Source: Aureimonas phyllosphaerae (GTDB lineage: Bacteria; Pseudomonadota; Alphaproteobacteria; Rhizobiales; Rhizobiaceae). Taken from it: 64,000 nt of DNA. How positions within the stretch are numbered: position 1 is the first letter of the stretch; every line of letters begins with the position of its first letter. Below the pieces are notes generated by a model. The model was not told the origin of the DNA. It searched no databases and worked only from the letters and a program-made list of their open reading frames with translations. The stretch is from positions 124,001 to 188,000 of the forward strand of contig NZ_FOOA01000007.1 in the NCBI RefSeq assembly GCF_900113065.1. Direction: 5' to 3'. The position numbers and the translations under genes are program-made. Of this stretch, positions 3,366 to 42,473 are shown piece by piece.

Positions 3366-3443
3366 GCCAAGCGGGCGGCGCCCTGTCCGGGGCGCGCCGC
3401 TCGCGGGAAACCAGACAAGCTCCGGCATTCGGGAGGAACACAT

Positions 3444-4391
3444 ATGAAACGCATCGTCGCCGGGCTCGCGGCCCTTGCCGTCCTGTCCACCGCCGGTCTC
3501 GCGCTCGCGCAGGACAAGAAGCTCACCATGGCCGTGTCGATCCCGGCCGCCGATCACGGCTGGACAGGCGGCGTCGTCTACCATGCCGAGCGCGAGGCCA
3601 AGCTCCTCGAGGAGCGCTATCCCGGCCTCGACATCGTGGTGAAGACCTCGCCCGACGGCGCCTCCCAGGCGAACGCTTTGGAGGACCTGACCGCGCAGGG
3701 CATCAACGCCCTCGTCACGCTGCCGCACAATTCCGACGAGTTGACCGATCCGATCCGGCAGGTGAAGGAGAAGGGTGTCTTCGTCACGGTGGTCGACCGG
3801 GCCCTCTCCGATCCGTCGATCCAGGACCTTTATGTGGCCGGCGACAACCACGGCCTCGGCCGCGTGGCGGGCGAGTACATGAGGGAGCGCATGGCGGACG
3901 GCGGCGACATCGTCATCATCCGCGGCCTGCCGATCGTCATCGACGAAGAGCGTCAGAAGGGCTTCGACGAGGGCATCGCCGGTTCCAAGGTCAACGTCCT
4001 CGACCGCCAGTTCGGCAACTGGTCGCGCGACGACGCCTTCAAGGTGATGCAGGACTACCTCGCCAAGTACCCCAAGATCGACGCGGTCTGGGCGCAGGAC
4101 GACGACATGGTGGTCGGCATCCTCGAGGCGATCGCGCAGAGCAATCGCTCCGACATCCAGTTCGTGGTCGGCGGGGCCGGCATGAAGGACATGATCAAGA
4201 AGGTGCAGGACGGCGACAAGATGGTGCCGGTCGACGTGCTCTATCCGCCCGCGATGATCGCGACCGCGATGGACCTGACGGCCGCGGGTCTCTTCGACCA
4301 GAACCCCGTACGCGGCAACTACGTGCTCGACGCGACGCTCGTCACCAAGGACAACGCGCAGGAGTTCTACTACCCAGACTCGCCGTTCTGA
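3444..4391 (+). CDS. Sugar ABC transporter periplasmic substrate-binding protein
   Basis: Type 1 periplasmic binding protein of the RbsB/sugar-binding family (Peripla_BP_4), 315 residues. A Sec signal peptide with hydrophobic core AGLAALAVLSTAGLALA and an ALAQ cleavage region occupies about residues 1-23. The mature part opens with LTMAVSIPAADHGWTGG, and the hinge-type segments DGASQANALEDL and VWAQDDDMVVGILEAI match RbsB-like folds. GGAGGAACA just before the ATG is a strong ribosome site. It captures the substrate in the periplasm for the upstream permease and ATPase. The WT and D/H residues in the first strand resemble ribose- or polyol-type binders, but I cannot name the ligand. Confidence 0.9.
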   Translation: MKRIVAGLAALAVLSTAGLALAQDKKLTMAVSIPAADHGWTGGVVYHAEREAKLLEERYPGLDIVVKTSPDGASQANALEDLTAQGINALVTLPHNSDELTDPIRQVKEKGVFVTVVDRALSDPSIQDLYVAGDNHGLGRVAGEYMRERMADGGDIVIIRGLPIVIDEERQKGFDEGIAGSKVNVLDRQFGNWSRDDAFKVMQDYLAKYPKIDAVWAQDDDMVVGILEAIAQSNRSDIQFVVGGAGMKDMIKKVQDGDKMVPVDVLYPPAMIATAMDLTAAGLFDQNPVRGNYVLDATLVTKDNAQEFYYPDSPF

Positions 4392-21997: not shown

Positions 21998-22064
21998 GAA
22001 ACGAGGCGTCGAAGGGAGAGTCGACGTCGGAAGCGCCGCAAAGGCGTTTCGGGAGGACGTCGGA

Positions 22065-23546
22065 ATGTCGGAACCGCTTCTGAAGGTGGAAGGGCTGCGC
22101 AAGTCCTTCGGCGGCGTCGCCGCGCTGCGCGACGGCCGCTTCGAGCTCGAGGTCGGCTCCGTGCATGCGCTGTGCGGCGGCAACGGGGCTGGCAAGTCCA
22201 CCTTCCTCACCATCGTCATGGGCATCCAGAAGCGCGACGGCGGCACGATCTGGCGCAACGGCCAGCCGGTGGACTTCTCCAGTCCCGCCGATGCGCTGAA
22301 GGCCGGCACCGCCATCATCGAGCAGGAGCTGAGCCCGGTTCCGCACATGAGCGTCGCCGAGAACATCTATCTCGGGCGCGAGCCGTCCGGCCGCTTCGGC
22401 GGCATCGACTTCCGCACCATGAACGCCCGCGCGCAGGCGCTGCTCGACGAGCTCGGCTTCGCCATCGACGCGCGCCAGGCGATGGCGACGCTCTCGGTCG
22501 CGCAGATGCAGCTCGTCGAGATCGCCAAGGCGCTCAGCCACGACGCCGAAGTGATCTTCATGGACGAGCCGACCTCGGCCATCGGCGAGCGCGAGGCGCA
22601 GCACCTCTTCGCCGCGATCGAGCGCCTGAAGGCTCAAGGGCGCGGCATCGTCTACGTCTCGCATCGCCTGTCGGAGATCTTCCAGATCGCCGACAGCTAC
22701 ACTGTCTTTCGCGACGGCGCCTTTGTCTCGAGCGGCAAGCTCGCCGAGATCGACCGCCCCGGCCTGATCGGCATGATCGTCGGGCGTGAGCTCGGCGAGG
22801 AATATATCAAGACGAACACGCCGTCGGAGACGGTCGGCCTGCGGGTCGAGGGGCTGGCGAGCCCCGGCCGGATCGAGGACATCTCGTTCGACGTGCGCAA
22901 GGGCGAGATCTTCGGCATCTACGGGCTGATGGGCTCGGGCCGCACCGAGATCTTCGATGCGCTGTTCGGCCTCGACCCGAAGGCCGAAGGGCGCGTTGCC
23001 GTGGACGGCCGCGAGATCGCGGTCCGCAAGCCGGCCGATGCGATGGCGGAAGGGCTGGCGCTCGTCACCGAGGACCGAAAGCAGACCGGCCTCAACCTCC
23101 ACGATTCGGTTCGCGGCAACATCGCGCTGGCGAGCCTGCCCGAGATGAGCCCGGCCTTCTCCATGCGCGGCCGGGACGAGGCGGCCGCCGCCCACGAGAT
23201 GATCGCGCGCTTCGGCATCAAGGCGGCGCGCGACACGATGCCGGTGTCCGGCCTGTCGGGCGGGAACCAGCAGAAGGTCGTGCTCGGCAAGTGGTTCCTG
23301 CGGAACCCCCGGGTGCTGCTCCTCGACGAGCCGACCCGCGGCGTCGATGTCGGCGCCAAGCGCGAGATCTACCGCATCATCTGCGAGTTCGCCGCCGCCG
23401 GCGGCACGGTCGCGATGATCTCGTCGGAGATCGACGAGGTCCTCGGGCTGTCGGACCGCGTGATGGTGATGCGGGGCGGGCGCTCGGCCGGCATCCTCGA
23501 CCGCAGCGAGGCCAGCGCGCAATCGCTCGTCCATCTTTCGACCTGA
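22065..23546 (+). CDS. Sugar ABC transporter ATP-binding protein (RbsA/MglA type)
   Basis: A 493-residue double-NBD ATPase. NBD1: P-loop GGNGAGKST (with Gly in place of the usual Glu), Q-loop EQELSPVPHMSV, signature LSVAQMQL and Walker B VIFMDEPTSAIG. NBD2: degenerate P-loop GLMGSGRTEIF, TEDRKQTGL, signature LSGGNQQK and Walker B LLLDEPTRGVD. ATG at 22065 follows GGGAGGA at ideal spacing; the in-frame ATG at 21993 overlaps the promoter and was rejected. It leads an operon of importer, dehydrogenase and kinase genes, so the imported sugar or polyol is presumably the substrate of the downstream enzymes. Confidence 0.93.
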   Translation: MSEPLLKVEGLRKSFGGVAALRDGRFELEVGSVHALCGGNGAGKSTFLTIVMGIQKRDGGTIWRNGQPVDFSSPADALKAGTAIIEQELSPVPHMSVAENIYLGREPSGRFGGIDFRTMNARAQALLDELGFAIDARQAMATLSVAQMQLVEIAKALSHDAEVIFMDEPTSAIGEREAQHLFAAIERLKAQGRGIVYVSHRLSEIFQIADSYTVFRDGAFVSSGKLAEIDRPGLIGMIVGRELGEEYIKTNTPSETVGLRVEGLASPGRIEDISFDVRKGEIFGIYGLMGSGRTEIFDALFGLDPKAEGRVAVDGREIAVRKPADAMAEGLALVTEDRKQTGLNLHDSVRGNIALASLPEMSPAFSMRGRDEAAAAHEMIARFGIKAARDTMPVSGLSGGNQQKVVLGKWFLRNPRVLLLDEPTRGVDVGAKREIYRIICEFAAAGGTVAMISSEIDEVLGLSDRVMVMRGGRSAGILDRSEASAQSLVHLST

Positions 23547-24669: not shown

Positions 24670-24702
24670 GACCACCAGTTCCACTCGGGAGGAGACTTGA
24701 CG

Positions 24703-25683
24703 ATGAAGACCCTACTGCTCGCCCTTGGCCTTGCCACCGCGCTCACCGGTCCGGTGCTCGCCCAGGAGAAGCTGAAGATCGGCGCGACCGTCTACGGCCT
24801 CAACGCCGAATTCATGCAGATCTGGACCGCCGCGCTGCAGAAGCATCCGGCCGTGCAGAAGGGCGAGGTCGAGGTGACCGTGTTCGACGGCCGCTACGAC
24901 GCGCTGGTCCAGCAGGAACAGTTCAACACGATGATCACGCAGCAGTATGACGCGATCATCTTCGTGCCGATGGATATCGAGGCAGGCGCCGCGCCCGTGC
25001 AGGCCGCGGTCGATGCCGGCATTCCGGTCGTCGGCTCCAACGCGCGCGTTAATTCCGACCTCCTGACCTCCTATGTCGGCTCCAACGACGTCGAGGCGGG
25101 CGAGCTCGAGGGCAAGGCCGTGCTCGACAAGATGGGCTGCAAGGGCAACCTCGTGATCATCGAGGGCCCGATCGGCCAGAGCGGCCAGATCCAGCGCCTC
25201 GAGGGCAACGAGAAGGCGCTCGCCGCCTGCCCCGACGTGAAGGTCTTGGAGAAGCAGACCGGCAACTGGTCGCGCGCCGAAGCCCAGACGCTGATGGAGA
25301 ACTGGCTGACCTCGCATCCCGGCCAGATCCAGGGCGTGATCGGCCAGAACGACGAGATGGCGCTCGGCGCGATCGAGGCGATCAAGGCCGCCGGCCTCAA
25401 CGTCAGCGACTTCGCGATCGCCGGCATCGACGGCGTGACCGACGCGATCAACGCGGTGAAGGCCGGCGAGATGGCCTCGATCTTGCAGGACGCGAACGCG
25501 CAGGCACAGGGCGCGCTCGACGTCGCGATCAAGGCTGTGAAGGCGGATTACCAGCCGCAGTCGCCGATCTGGAACCAGTACCCGTCGATGAAGTGGGAAG
25601 ACGGCAAGGCGAAGACCTACCTCGTCCCTTGGACGCCGGTGACGACGGCCAATGCCGACGAGCTCCTGAAGTCGCGCCAGTAG
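24703..25683 (+). CDS. Sugar ABC transporter substrate-binding protein
   Basis: A 326-residue periplasmic binding protein (Peripla_BP_4, RbsB-like). The signal peptide is MKTLLLALGLATALTGPVLAQ. The mature fold opens KLKIGATVYGLNAEFMQIW, with hinge-proximal VDAGIPVVGSNARV, the cleft segment TGNWSRAEAQTLMENWL and GVIGQNDEMALGAIEAI. ATG at 24703 has GGGAGGAG at good spacing; TTG at 24697 would be too close. Conserved Asn/Asp residues in NDEMALG and AGIDG suggest a pentose-, tetritol- or polyol-type ligand, but the ligand is not proven. A hairpin (GGCCGG/CCGGCC near 25698-25713) separates it from the dehydrogenase gene. Confidence 0.92.
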   Translation: MKTLLLALGLATALTGPVLAQEKLKIGATVYGLNAEFMQIWTAALQKHPAVQKGEVEVTVFDGRYDALVQQEQFNTMITQQYDAIIFVPMDIEAGAAPVQAAVDAGIPVVGSNARVNSDLLTSYVGSNDVEAGELEGKAVLDKMGCKGNLVIIEGPIGQSGQIQRLEGNEKALAACPDVKVLEKQTGNWSRAEAQTLMENWLTSHPGQIQGVIGQNDEMALGAIEAIKAAGLNVSDFAIAGIDGVTDAINAVKAGEMASILQDANAQAQGALDVAIKAVKADYQPQSPIWNQYPSMKWEDGKAKTYLVPWTPVTTANADELLKSRQ

Positions 25684-27582: not shown

Positions 27583-28224
27583 ATGCAGAGCTTCCCGAAT
27601 GCCGGCGGCGGCGCGATCGTCGAGGCGATGGCCGCGCGGATCGTCGAGAACAAGGCCTACCTGTCGGAGATCGACGGCAAGATCGGCGACGGCGACCATG
27701 GCGTGAACATGGCCAAGGGCTTCGGCATGGCGGCCGAGCGGCTGAAGGACCGCGACGCGTCGCTCGCGGACGCGTTCGCGCTTCTCGGCGAGGTGCTGAT
27801 GGGCGAGATCGGCGGTTCGATGGGCCCGCTCTACGGCATGACCTTCACCGAATTCGCCGAAGCCATCGAGGGTCGGGACGCGATCGACGCCGCCCTGTTC
27901 TCGACCATGCTGCACAAGGGCCTCGAAGGCGTGCAGTCGATCGGCTCGGCCAAGGTCGGCGACAAGACGCTGCTCGACACGTTCGTGCCGGCGGTGGAGG
28001 CCTTCGATGCGGCGAACGCCGAGGGCAAGTCCTTCGCCGAGGCGCTGGATGCGCTGGTGGCGGCCGCCGAAAAGGGGCGCGACTCGACGATCGACCTCGT
28101 GGCGAAGATCGGCCGGGCGAGCCGCCTCGGCGAGCGCTCGCGCGGCGTGCTCGATGCGGGCGCGACGTCCTGCGCGATGATCCTCAAAAGCCTTGCGGAC
28201 GGCGCCAAAGCACGGCTCGCCTGA
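27583..28224 (+). CDS. dhaL: Dihydroxyacetone kinase subunit DhaL (second copy)
   Basis: A 213-residue nucleotide-binding subunit. EIDGKIGDGDHG carries the Mg/ADP-binding aspartates; GGSMGPLYGM, GDKTLLDTFVPA and GRDSTIDLVAKIGRASRLGERS complete the fold. ATG at 27583 is preceded by GAGGGAGA; TTG at 27565 overlaps the dhaK stop and lies within that ribosome site. It is the last gene of the importer-dehydrogenase-kinase operon, and an intrinsic terminator follows 33 bases after the stop. Confidence 0.94.
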   Translation: MQSFPNAGGGAIVEAMAARIVENKAYLSEIDGKIGDGDHGVNMAKGFGMAAERLKDRDASLADAFALLGEVLMGEIGGSMGPLYGMTFTEFAEAIEGRDAIDAALFSTMLHKGLEGVQSIGSAKVGDKTLLDTFVPAVEAFDAANAEGKSFAEALDALVAAAEKGRDSTIDLVAKIGRASRLGERSRGVLDAGATSCAMILKSLADGAKARLA

Positions 28225-28256
28225 GCGGCATCGCGTCTGGCAAGACGAAATCGGGA

Positions 28257-28287
28257 AGGGGAGGGTCCGCGGATCCTCCCCTTTTTC
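28257..28287 (+). terminator. Intrinsic terminator of the ABC-SDR-DhaKL operon
   Basis: GGGGAGGGTCC at 28258-28268 pairs with GGATCCTCCCC at 28271-28281 (one G-U pair), directly followed by TTTTT at 28282-28286. A strong, textbook rho-independent terminator. Confidence 0.9.
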
Positions 28288-28330
28288 TGTGCGAGACGGA
28301 AACCCGCGCGATCCGCGCATCGCCCAACGC

Positions 28331-28440
28331 AAAACGCCCTGCCGGGGGAGGACCGGCAGGGCGTCATGGGTAAAGCCCGCGTGGGAGGAACGCGGGCTTC
28401 GATCCGCTTCGGCCGTTGGGAGGAGAGTGGCCGACGCGAA
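28331..28440 (-). ncRNA. Small RNA with three hairpins, each with a UCCUCCC (anti-Shine-Dalgarno) loop
   Basis: Read on the minus strand, 5' to 3', there are three consecutive stem-loops. The first is a six-base stem UCGGCC/GGCCGA (28429-28434 with 28409-28414) enclosing CUCCUCCC. The second is a ten-base perfect stem (28390-28399 with 28373-28382) with a loop of exactly UCCUCCC. The third is a twelve-base perfect stem (28353-28364 with 28334-28345) with loop UCCUCCC, followed by UUUU, i.e. an intrinsic terminator. The loops complement ribosome-binding sites. This design matches the alphaproteobacterial 'cuckoo'/CcsR-type sRNAs, known from Rhodobacter and rhizobia. The 5' end is not determined and could lie as far upstream as about 28490. 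It is encoded opposite the DhaL operon tail, in a non-coding region. Confidence 0.75.
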
Positions 28441-28686
28441 AATCTTGAGAGGATCAGTCGAGGCCCCGCGGGTGCCGCTTCCGTTTCTCTGATGCTTCGA
28501 ACATAGGGGTTCGGATCGAAATGCTGTAGTGCAAAAACCGCATAGCTGCATTGCGGTATAAGTCTGCGGATTTCCCATCCGAGACCAAAATGCCACAGGA
28601 CCGTAGCCGCCTATTCATCATTCTGTCATATGGGATGACAGGTTCCCTTACGGACTCTAGCGTGCTGCGCAGACTGTGGGGACACG
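28441..28686. other. Non-coding region upstream of sRNA and divergent membrane-protein gene
   Basis: About 250 bases, more AT-rich than the surroundings, without a convincing gene. It should hold the sRNA promoter (minus strand) and the promoter of the plus-strand membrane-protein gene. A dyad CCGCA-N9-TGCGG spans 28538-28556 and a T-N11-A box lies at 28530-28542. I could not assign -35/-10 elements with confidence. Confidence 0.4.
28530..28542. promoter_or_regulatory. T-N11-A LysR-type box near sRNA promoter
   Basis: TGC-AAAAACC-GCA fits the T-N11-A dyad bound by LysR-type regulators and lies about 90-100 bases upstream of the first sRNA hairpin, an activator-like position. An overlapping dyad CCGCA-N9-TGCGG follows. 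LysR regulators control related small RNAs and DUF1127 genes in Rhizobiales; assignment here is inference. Confidence 0.3.
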
Positions 28687-29337
28687 ATGCAGCATCTGGA
28701 ATTTCGAAACGGCTTCGCCAAGCTCCTGGCGGGCGTAATGACCCTTACCCTTCTCGGGGCCCTCTTTTCGTGGTGGACACTGGGTCTGCCTTTGGCCGCG
28801 CACGAGAATGGTCCACTGGAATGGGTTCAGGAGGCGGCTCTCCTGGCGGCGGCCGTATTCTCCGGCGCAGCGGCTGCCGGACTAAGAGGCCCCGAGCGCA
28901 TCGCCGCCTATCTCGCCACCCTTCTTTACCTCGTGTTCCTCCTGCGAGAACTGGAACTGCCGCCGGTCGGTCCGGTGACCACCTATCTCGCCTCGGATGC
29001 ATTCCGCTGGCATGAGGCGCTGGCGCTCGTGGTTCTCGTCCTGCCCTGCCTCGTTCGCGGGTGGCGTCACTGGCGCACCTTCCTCGCCTACGGACTCAGC
29101 CTGCGCGGCTGGCCCTTTGCCGTGGCGGCCGGTCTCGTCGGCCTCGGGGCCGTGTTCGACGGTGCGCCGCATTTTGCCGGCGTTGCCTGGCTCGGCACGT
29201 TCCTCGAGGAAACGGCCGAGCTCCTTGGCTATGTCGTGCTGGCGACTGCGGCCGGCTGGGTTCTCGCCGGCATCCGCAGCGAGGCGACGACGGATGCCGT
29301 CGCCCTGCGCGGCGCCGATCCGATCGGCTCTCAGTAG
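28687..29337 (+). CDS. Polytopic membrane protein of unknown function
   Basis: A 216-residue protein with about five or six hydrophobic segments (approximate residues 12-33, 48-65, 72-90, 105-120, 137-155 and 172-195). Between them are acidic and tryptophan-containing motifs: NGPLEWVQEAALL, LLRELELP, FDGAPH and FLEETAELLGYVVL. The paired Glu residues in EWVQE, RELE and EETAE, on the edges of the helices, might form a conserved polar site, but I do not recognise the family. The ATG at 28687 has GGGGA upstream. Its 3' end overlaps the convergent gamma-glutamyltransferase gene by 7 bases. No operon partner is visible. Confidence 0.8.
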   Translation: MQHLEFRNGFAKLLAGVMTLTLLGALFSWWTLGLPLAAHENGPLEWVQEAALLAAAVFSGAAAAGLRGPERIAAYLATLLYLVFLLRELELPPVGPVTTYLASDAFRWHEALALVVLVLPCLVRGWRHWRTFLAYGLSLRGWPFAVAAGLVGLGAVFDGAPHFAGVAWLGTFLEETAELLGYVVLATAAGWVLAGIRSEATTDAVALRGADPIGSQ

Positions 29338-31212: not shown

Positions 31213-31368
31213 ATGCTCGCCCGCTTCAGCCGCCTTGTCAGCGCCCGTCGCCGCCGCCTTGCGTCGCTCGACGCCATCCGTCACCTCGACGCGCGGCTGC
31301 TCGCCGATGTGGGGCTCCGTCGTGCGGGAGCCGGCCGGCTTGTCGAGCGCCTTCCGGCCGCCGGCTGA
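31213..31368 (+). CDS. DUF1127 small arginine-rich protein
   Basis: A 51-residue protein of the DUF1127 (YjiS-like) family. The N-terminal half is basic ([23 protein letters not shown]), and the C-terminal half has the family motif [11 protein letters not shown]. The ATG is preceded by AAGGAGGA at ideal spacing. Small DUF1127 proteins in Rhizobiales affect phosphate/carbon metabolism and RNA turnover, and in Rhodobacter such a gene (ccaF1) is cotranscribed with CcsR anti-SD sRNAs. Here the sRNA is 2.8 kb away, so they are not cotranscribed. Its stop is 4 bases from the 3' end of the convergent M23 peptidase gene. Confidence 0.88.
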
Positions 31369-40627: not shown

Positions 40628-40760
40628 GTGAGGTCTCGTGTTCGAAAGGTGCAACGCGCGAGGTGGGAAAAAAGCTCAAGGCCAAAGCCACAGGAGGAAG
40701 ACAAGGCGGCTCCGGGCGCTTAAGTCTTTTGCGGTGCAAACGCCCGACGCCGGAGGAGCC

Positions 40761-42473
<1,713 letters not shown>

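Follow-up and report, generated by a model that had tools for sequence, protein, structure and literature searches.

We report that the minus strand of a 64,000-nucleotide stretch of Aureimonas phyllosphaerae DNA (the whole stretch analysed, hereafter the window) carries an RNA at 28330-28444 that, judged from its sequence, is a further member of the described αr14 (NfeR1, 'cuckoo' type) family and not a new kind of RNA. It quite probably acts in trans, by LsrB/VtlR-type activation, pairing of its three loops with sites in binding-protein mRNAs and a block of translation. On this reading a LysR-type regulator of the LsrB/VtlR kind would activate the promoter from a box at about -61 to -49, upstream of a -10 element at 28505-28500; a transcript of about 28493-28330 would be made, ending at the third hairpin; and its three exposed UCCUCCC loops would pair, probably redundantly, with Shine-Dalgarno sites of the GGGAGGA type. 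The paired mRNAs would mainly encode periplasmic binding proteins of ABC transporters, so that blocking their translation would turn off nutrient uptake genes. The support comes from sequence and structure, family membership, conservation, the promoter box, an lsrB orthologue in the host genome and the concentration of the loop complement at particular gene starts.

Structure of the RNA

The minus strand between 28330 and 28444 folds into three adjacent hairpins, with UCCUCCC exposed in every loop. In the MFE fold, hairpin 1 (28403-28440) has 11 pairs with one internal mismatch, and its loop contains CUCCUCCC at 28418-28425, the UCCUCCC copy taking up 28418-28424. Hairpin 2 (28372-28400) has 11 pairs and a 7-nt loop with UCCUCCC at 28383-28389. 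Hairpin 3 (28333-28365) is terminator-like, with 13 pairs and a 7-nt loop holding the third copy (28346-28352); a separate terminator scan also flags a terminator-like site here, and the 3' end reads GUUUUG, with only four U after the stem. A first-pass annotation of the same DNA had described three minus-strand hairpins with UCCUCCC loops, the last followed by UUUU, and the motif positions, the fold and the terminator scan bear this out. It had given two of the stems as 10 and 12 perfect pairs; the long stems are there, and the MFE fold makes them 11 and 13 pairs when terminal G-U and A-U pairs are counted.

The same annotation had judged a chance origin unlikely, and we agree. The fold energy is -65.9 kcal/mol against a shuffled mean of -40.4 (z -6.92), and none of 200 shuffles was as good. 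When the window was simulated 200 times with a first-order Markov model, three copies of TCCTCCC never clustered on one strand; the real window contains this one such cluster. Across the whole genome the strict triple pattern was matched 3 times, against no match for the reversed control. The 8-mer CTCCTCCC alone is not enriched in the window (4 found, 4.08 expected). Judging by the promoter described below, the 5' end of the RNA probably lies near 28493, beyond the interval 28331-28440 that had been annotated.

Family assignment

When the whole window was searched with cmscan, two Rfam families scored over their cut-offs, αr14 (RF02344) among them. Its match at 28330-28444 of the minus strand reaches 75.7 bits, where the cut-off is 58.8, and spans the complete model (1-123 of 123; E 7.8e-12). 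A permissive scan of 28200-28700 returned seven families, with αr14 alone over its cut-off: 6C scored 29.3 bits (47 needed) and CcsR1 (RF02791) 14.6 bits (65.3 needed), and the matches to these two models cover 28367-28444 only, without the third hairpin. Elsewhere in the window, RF02514 (5' ureB sRNA) matches the minus strand at 40915-41202 with 110.4 bits, antisense to a urease alpha-subunit-like ORF on the plus strand (40638-42473); this match is probably conserved coding sequence.

The first-pass annotation had likened the RNA to the cuckoo/CcsR type and suggested a covariance-model search. The cuckoo part of that likeness, a minus-strand sRNA with anti-Shine-Dalgarno (aSD) loops, stands; the CcsR part does not, the CcsR1 model staying below its cut-off and the αr14 model passing. 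The motif in the terminator loop had been taken as an extra on a CcsR-like RNA. It is instead a described αr14 feature (PMC10746234, PMC3927594) and thus not special, as the published αr14 design puts an aSD motif in every one of its three hairpins and has greatly divergent stems (PMC10746234, PMC3927594, PMC7143759). The 9-mer CCUCCUCCC has been called identical and ultraconserved across αr14 loops (PMC10746234). In the window RNA each of the three hairpins presents an unpaired aSD with 7-8 nt of these nine; the full CCUCCUCCC is not found in every loop, the loops being CUCCUCCC, UUCCUCCC and UCCUCCC. We treat this departure as variation within the family, because the Rfam model accepts the RNA and the core UCCUCCC is kept.

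Copies and conservation

The host genome (4.7 Mb in 60 contigs) holds four αr14 copies over the RF02344 cut-off: the window copy, A (28330-28444, minus strand), and copies B (C17:1184-1298), C (C42:16430-16549) and D (C28:360346-360467), where C-numbers are host contigs; below, G-numbers denote genomes compared and L-numbers extracted loci. Of 41 genomes searched (that of the host and those of 40 relatives), 33 gave a match at E 0.001 and 26 gave one that passed the cut-off; 14 control genomes gave none. Every one of the 21 Aureimonas genomes searched has αr14 copies, from 1 to 10 each and 81 in total. Of the 103 listed matches we used 89: the 81 copies of the genus, and 8 more from outside it. 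Three or more exact TCCTCCC are present in 68 of the 89 (61 of the 81 in the genus), and the copies falling short of three include weak matches that resemble two-hairpin relatives.

We aligned 34 hand-picked full-type copies out of 71 non-identical ones, omitting, among others, the amplified copies of G013, G016 and G019. Mean column identity in this alignment was 99.7% in the motif, 81.1% in stems and 64.8% elsewhere. Laid on the structure of the window copy, 87.0% of the pair cells are standard pairs and 19 of the 35 pairs have changed on both sides, two to three outer pairs of hairpin 3 being misaligned in 22 sequences. None of 500 shuffles reached either value; slid structures pair in at most 47.9%, a control that is biased because the structure was drawn from one aligned sequence. 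Thus, in these 34 selected copies, the loops are conserved and the stems are variable yet still pair, as in αr14. The first-pass annotation had named loops lost and stems kept as the pattern that would speak against it, and the alignment has the opposite, with covariation in the stems.

Several other arrangements were seen. G013 and G019 have αr14 amplified to 9 and 10 copies per genome (for example L075-L081 and L084-L091), most of them after a DUF1127 ORF and most without the box and -10 pattern of the other copies. Tandem αr14 pairs occur at L099 (2501-2743; G007), L006 (G023) and L026 (G039). The loci L070, L071, L102, L103, L108, L109, L111, L112 and similar ones hold relatives with just two hairpins, which carry CCUCCUCCC, have a CCGGUCCUCCCCCGG terminator and score under the αr14 cut-off. 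We also considered whether synteny with the neighbouring dhaL gene is an old arrangement and discarded this as a general rule: of 80 named dhaL loci, only 2 have the triple motif close by, and both are labelled Aureimonas or A. flava.

Copies B and D each begin about 10 nt after the end of a small arginine-rich DUF1127 ORF (PF06568). By a profile search, such an ORF lies within 500 nt upstream of 53 of the 89 copies (50 of the 81 in the genus), the profile having been built from seven of the 89, which match by construction. The window copy has none in the 500 nt before it. An ORF at 31213-31368 was tried as a DUF1127 gene and rejected, since it matches no Pfam family and is not among the 4 PF06568 matches of the genome. 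Pairing of DUF1127 with a CcsR-like RNA is known as the CIN1 locus (PMC10253847). In G018, at a site that shares only its upstream neighbour with copy A, a DUF1127 ORF sits between box and RNA, which suggests that copy A may have lost its upstream DUF1127 ORF.

Promoter and regulator

Upstream of the window copy, on the same strand, lie a -10 element, TATGTT (28500-28505), found by a scan for a box/-10 pattern, and an LsrB/VtlR-like box, CAATGCAGCTATGCG (28539-28553), which has 2 mismatches in 15 to the published VtlR-binding motif CAATGCAGCCATGCA (PMC12595884). The position of the -10 element predicts a 5' leader at 28445-28493 and a transcript of about 28493-28330. If the -10 element is taken to lie at -12, the box spans -61 to -49, where the LsrB box of AbcR1, GCAT-N3-TG-N3-T, is also placed (PMC8844928); by eye, it agrees with that form at just 5 of its 7 fixed letters. 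A sigma-70 consensus scan found no promoter at the window copy and no good -35. The lack of a standard -35 is expected if an activator is needed at this promoter.

A box GCA-N8-[ATC]TGC followed by a -10-like element is found upstream of all four host copies, with 34 nt between the two in A, B and C; D was scored at 31 nt, but by eye TATATC lies at 34. Among the 89 copies, 40 have the box and a -10 at 31-37 nt upstream (0.14 expected), with a pattern that was drawn up after viewing the host's own four promoters. The VtlR motif at up to three mismatches occurs in 48 of the 89 upstream regions, compared with about 2 of 89 in simulations, some of the 48 sitting on the other strand or oddly placed. 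Within the window, the box of copy A is the best of two VtlR matches at up to three mismatches; 0.84 are expected, so the single match would not be significant without conservation. The syntenic copies in G002, G004, G006, G008 and G010 keep box and -10 at 34-nt spacing, and the G004 copy agrees with the VtlR motif at 15 of 15 positions, where the window copy has 13. Divergent from the sRNA promoter is a plus-strand ORF of 216 aa (28687-29337) that matches no Pfam family at E 0.001.

The host genome encodes an LsrB orthologue of 67% identity, the next LysR proteins being at 25-30%. LsrB activates the NfeR1 promoter in S. meliloti (PMC10746234); on control of AbcR by LsrB in that species, the papers disagree (PMC8844928, PMC7486931). 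An LsrB/VtlR-like box would connect the window RNA with redox control indirectly only.

The AbcR (αr15) model RF02345 has no match in the host genome at E 0.01; it is over its cut-off in none of the 21 genus genomes, weak in 3 of them at E up to 0.01, and it does pass its cut-off in 3 genomes of the family outside the genus. The view that AbcR is absent from the genus was dropped, as inspection by eye showed an AbcR-like stretch adjoining lsrB (about 2490-2660 of L297, contig C22, after lsrB), which has a terminator and two aSD motifs. Rfam does not call this stretch ar15, its best match being RF00519 with 23.9 bits where 41 are needed. Again by eye, the box upstream of it has all the fixed letters of GCAT-N3-TG-N3-T, at 33-nt spacing.

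Candidate targets

On the plus strand of the window, GGGAGGAG at 24687-24694 is a candidate target site, a perfect 8-nt complement of loop 1; it precedes a sugar ABC-transporter binding-protein gene (PF13407; ATG at 24703) that lies 3.6 kb from the sRNA. Two further candidate sites on that strand are GGGAGGA at 22051-22057, before the ATG at 22065 of an ABC-transporter ATPase gene (PF00005), and at 3431-3437, before the ATG at 3444 of another PF13407 gene.

Genome-wide, GGGAGGA-N4-9-ATG occurs at 139 sites and the reversed pattern at 19. The first 30 sites in contig order gave 26 with an ORF of at least 60 aa, and these 26 include seven periplasmic binding proteins, one NMT1-like protein and one ABC ATPase. 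Conversely, of the genome's 30 Peripla_BP_4 (PF13407) genes, 16 carry GGGAGGA ahead of an in-frame ATG, a concentration with a binomial probability of about 1e-16 if 4,400 genes are assumed, which is a rough figure because every in-frame ATG of every open frame counted. The same letters in their 20 other orders precede 0-5 of the 30 genes, and the overlapping words GGAGGAA, GAGGAGA and GGAGGAG precede 8, 5 and 5. We prefer this permutation control to a set of 30 AAGGAG sites (18 ORFs of at least 60 aa; 10 scanned, no binding protein), because many AAGGAG sites are not real starts.

Among 70 loci with orthologues of the gene at 24703, 69 retain GGAGG and 8 retain GGGAGGA; the retention of GGAGG may be plain conservation of a ribosome site. 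GGGAGGA is a strong ribosome site in itself, and its concentration in transporter genes may for this reason have other causes. It is also possible that the AbcR-like RNA beside lsrB could be the main user of these sites. In S. meliloti, three redundant aSD motifs of NfeR1 repress two binding-protein mRNAs and ntrB (PMC10746234), and the concentration of GGGAGGA supports, by analogy, a base-pairing repression of ABC-transporter mRNAs by the window RNA.

Similarity between paralogues

The window copy and the paralogue 151 kb away have only the RNA body of about 120 nt in common. Six genomes were compared, and within each the alignment of A with B is confined to 117-126 nt, BLAST finding no match between the flanks. 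The surroundings of copy A match those in G002, G004, G006 and G010 on both sides and those in G008 and G018 on one side; the surroundings of copy B match G004, G006, G008 and G010 on both sides and G002 on one, the sole side testable there.

We compared the differences between A and B within a genome with those to their orthologues. In G004, A and B do not differ, and the nearest A and B orthologues are 9 and 10 differences away; in G006 the values are 7, 10 and 9. In the host genome A and B differ by 4, A and its nearest orthologue by 8, and B and its own orthologue by only 1. The sign is missing in G002, G010 and G008, where A and B differ by 8, 9 and 13, compared with 2/1, 2/1 and 10/11 to orthologues. 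Paralogues are thus closer than orthologues both ways in 2 of 6 genomes, one-sidedly in 1, and not in 3. This makes gene conversion between the A and B RNA bodies likely but not certain, as the numbers are small, several copies lie near contig ends and short-read assembly may blur near-identical repeats. Intragenomic transfer has already been mentioned for the SmelA075 group (PMC3927594).

Discussion

Against the αr14 wiring we count the copies without all three motifs (present in 68 of 89), the box with 5 of 7 fixed letters, the missing -35 and the run of four U. We think it unlikely that the expressed αr14 RNAs are the other copies, those after DUF1127 genes, and that the window copy is silent or a decoy, serving as a sponge or a seldom-used duplicate. 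Such a division of labour would fit the report that only one of six NfeR1-type copies is reliably detected by northern blot in S. meliloti (PMC7143759), and the window copy does lack the upstream DUF1127 gene that 50 of 81 genus copies have. However, the five syntenic copies keep box, -10 and their spacing, and a change unique to the window copy, GCGGGC where the paralogue and several orthologues have GCTGGC, restores a pair of hairpin 2.

The other readings concern what kind of RNA this is and with what it pairs. Membership of the CcsR or 6C type (Rhodobacter cuckoo RNA or actinobacterial 6C) instead of αr14 seems to us highly improbable: both models do overlap the RNA weakly, and the sister copies next to DUF1127 genes recall CcaF1-CcsR (PMC10253847), but both scores are far under cut-offs of a kind that αr14 passes, and the third hairpin lies outside both matches. 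The first-pass annotation had proposed a general ribosome-site role or a protein sponge, and this we regard as very unlikely. UCCUCCC resembles the 3' end of 16S rRNA, and a loop of this kind could pair with any strong Shine-Dalgarno site; the exact complement, however, is not evenly spread but concentrated at the starts of solute-binding-protein genes, and for a sponge the sequence analysis gave no sign of a protein partner.

Under the preferred reading, an αr14 RNA pairing with binding-protein mRNAs, what looked like an unusual RNA belongs to a known family, and Aureimonas probably shares the published NfeR1/LsrB wiring. This reading also offers a testable set of targets, the genes with GGGAGGA starts, chiefly those of ABC-transporter binding proteins. 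More tentatively, and on the doubtful side in our estimate, the Aureimonas αr14 RNAs may be a multicopy set activated by LsrB/VtlR, in which gene conversion of just the body of about 120 nt keeps the scattered copies alike and lets them act jointly. If so, separately embedded copies, whether stand-alone or the 3' part of a DUF1127 transcript, would form one regulator of the binding-protein regulon; this would be a bacterial sRNA family evolving in concert, under selection for dosage. Gene conversion, if true, would provide a natural system for asking why sibling sRNAs stay alike. Two observations seem to go beyond the family's description, the sign of gene conversion and how strong the bias of GGGAGGA is; none of the literature matches listed has a title on either.

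Compared with known systems, the window RNA is closest to the αr14 RNAs of S. meliloti (NfeR1/Smr14C2/SmelC397 and the SmelA075 group), with which it shares three aSD-loop hairpins with hypervariable stems in about 115 nt, multiple copies, an LsrB-type box upstream and binding-protein mRNAs as predicted targets. It differs from them in that only the 7-nt UCCUCCC, not CCUCCUCCC, is common to its three loops, and in its predicted leader of about 49 nt, its Aureimonas host and a near-identical paralogue elsewhere in the genome. With AbcR (αr15) it has in common a putative aSD-based control of ABC transporters under LsrB/VtlR activation (PMC8844928, PMC7486931), whereas its architecture is different and the RF02345 model finds nothing in the host genome at E 0.01. 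Like the Rhodobacter cuckoo RNAs CcsR1-4, which accompany the DUF1127 protein CcaF1 in the CIN1 locus, it has aSD loops, and 2 of the 4 host copies, though not that of the window, directly follow a DUF1127 gene. Unlike them, it does not match the CcsR1 model, and it has an LsrB-like box where the Rhodobacter locus has an RpoH promoter (PMC10253847).
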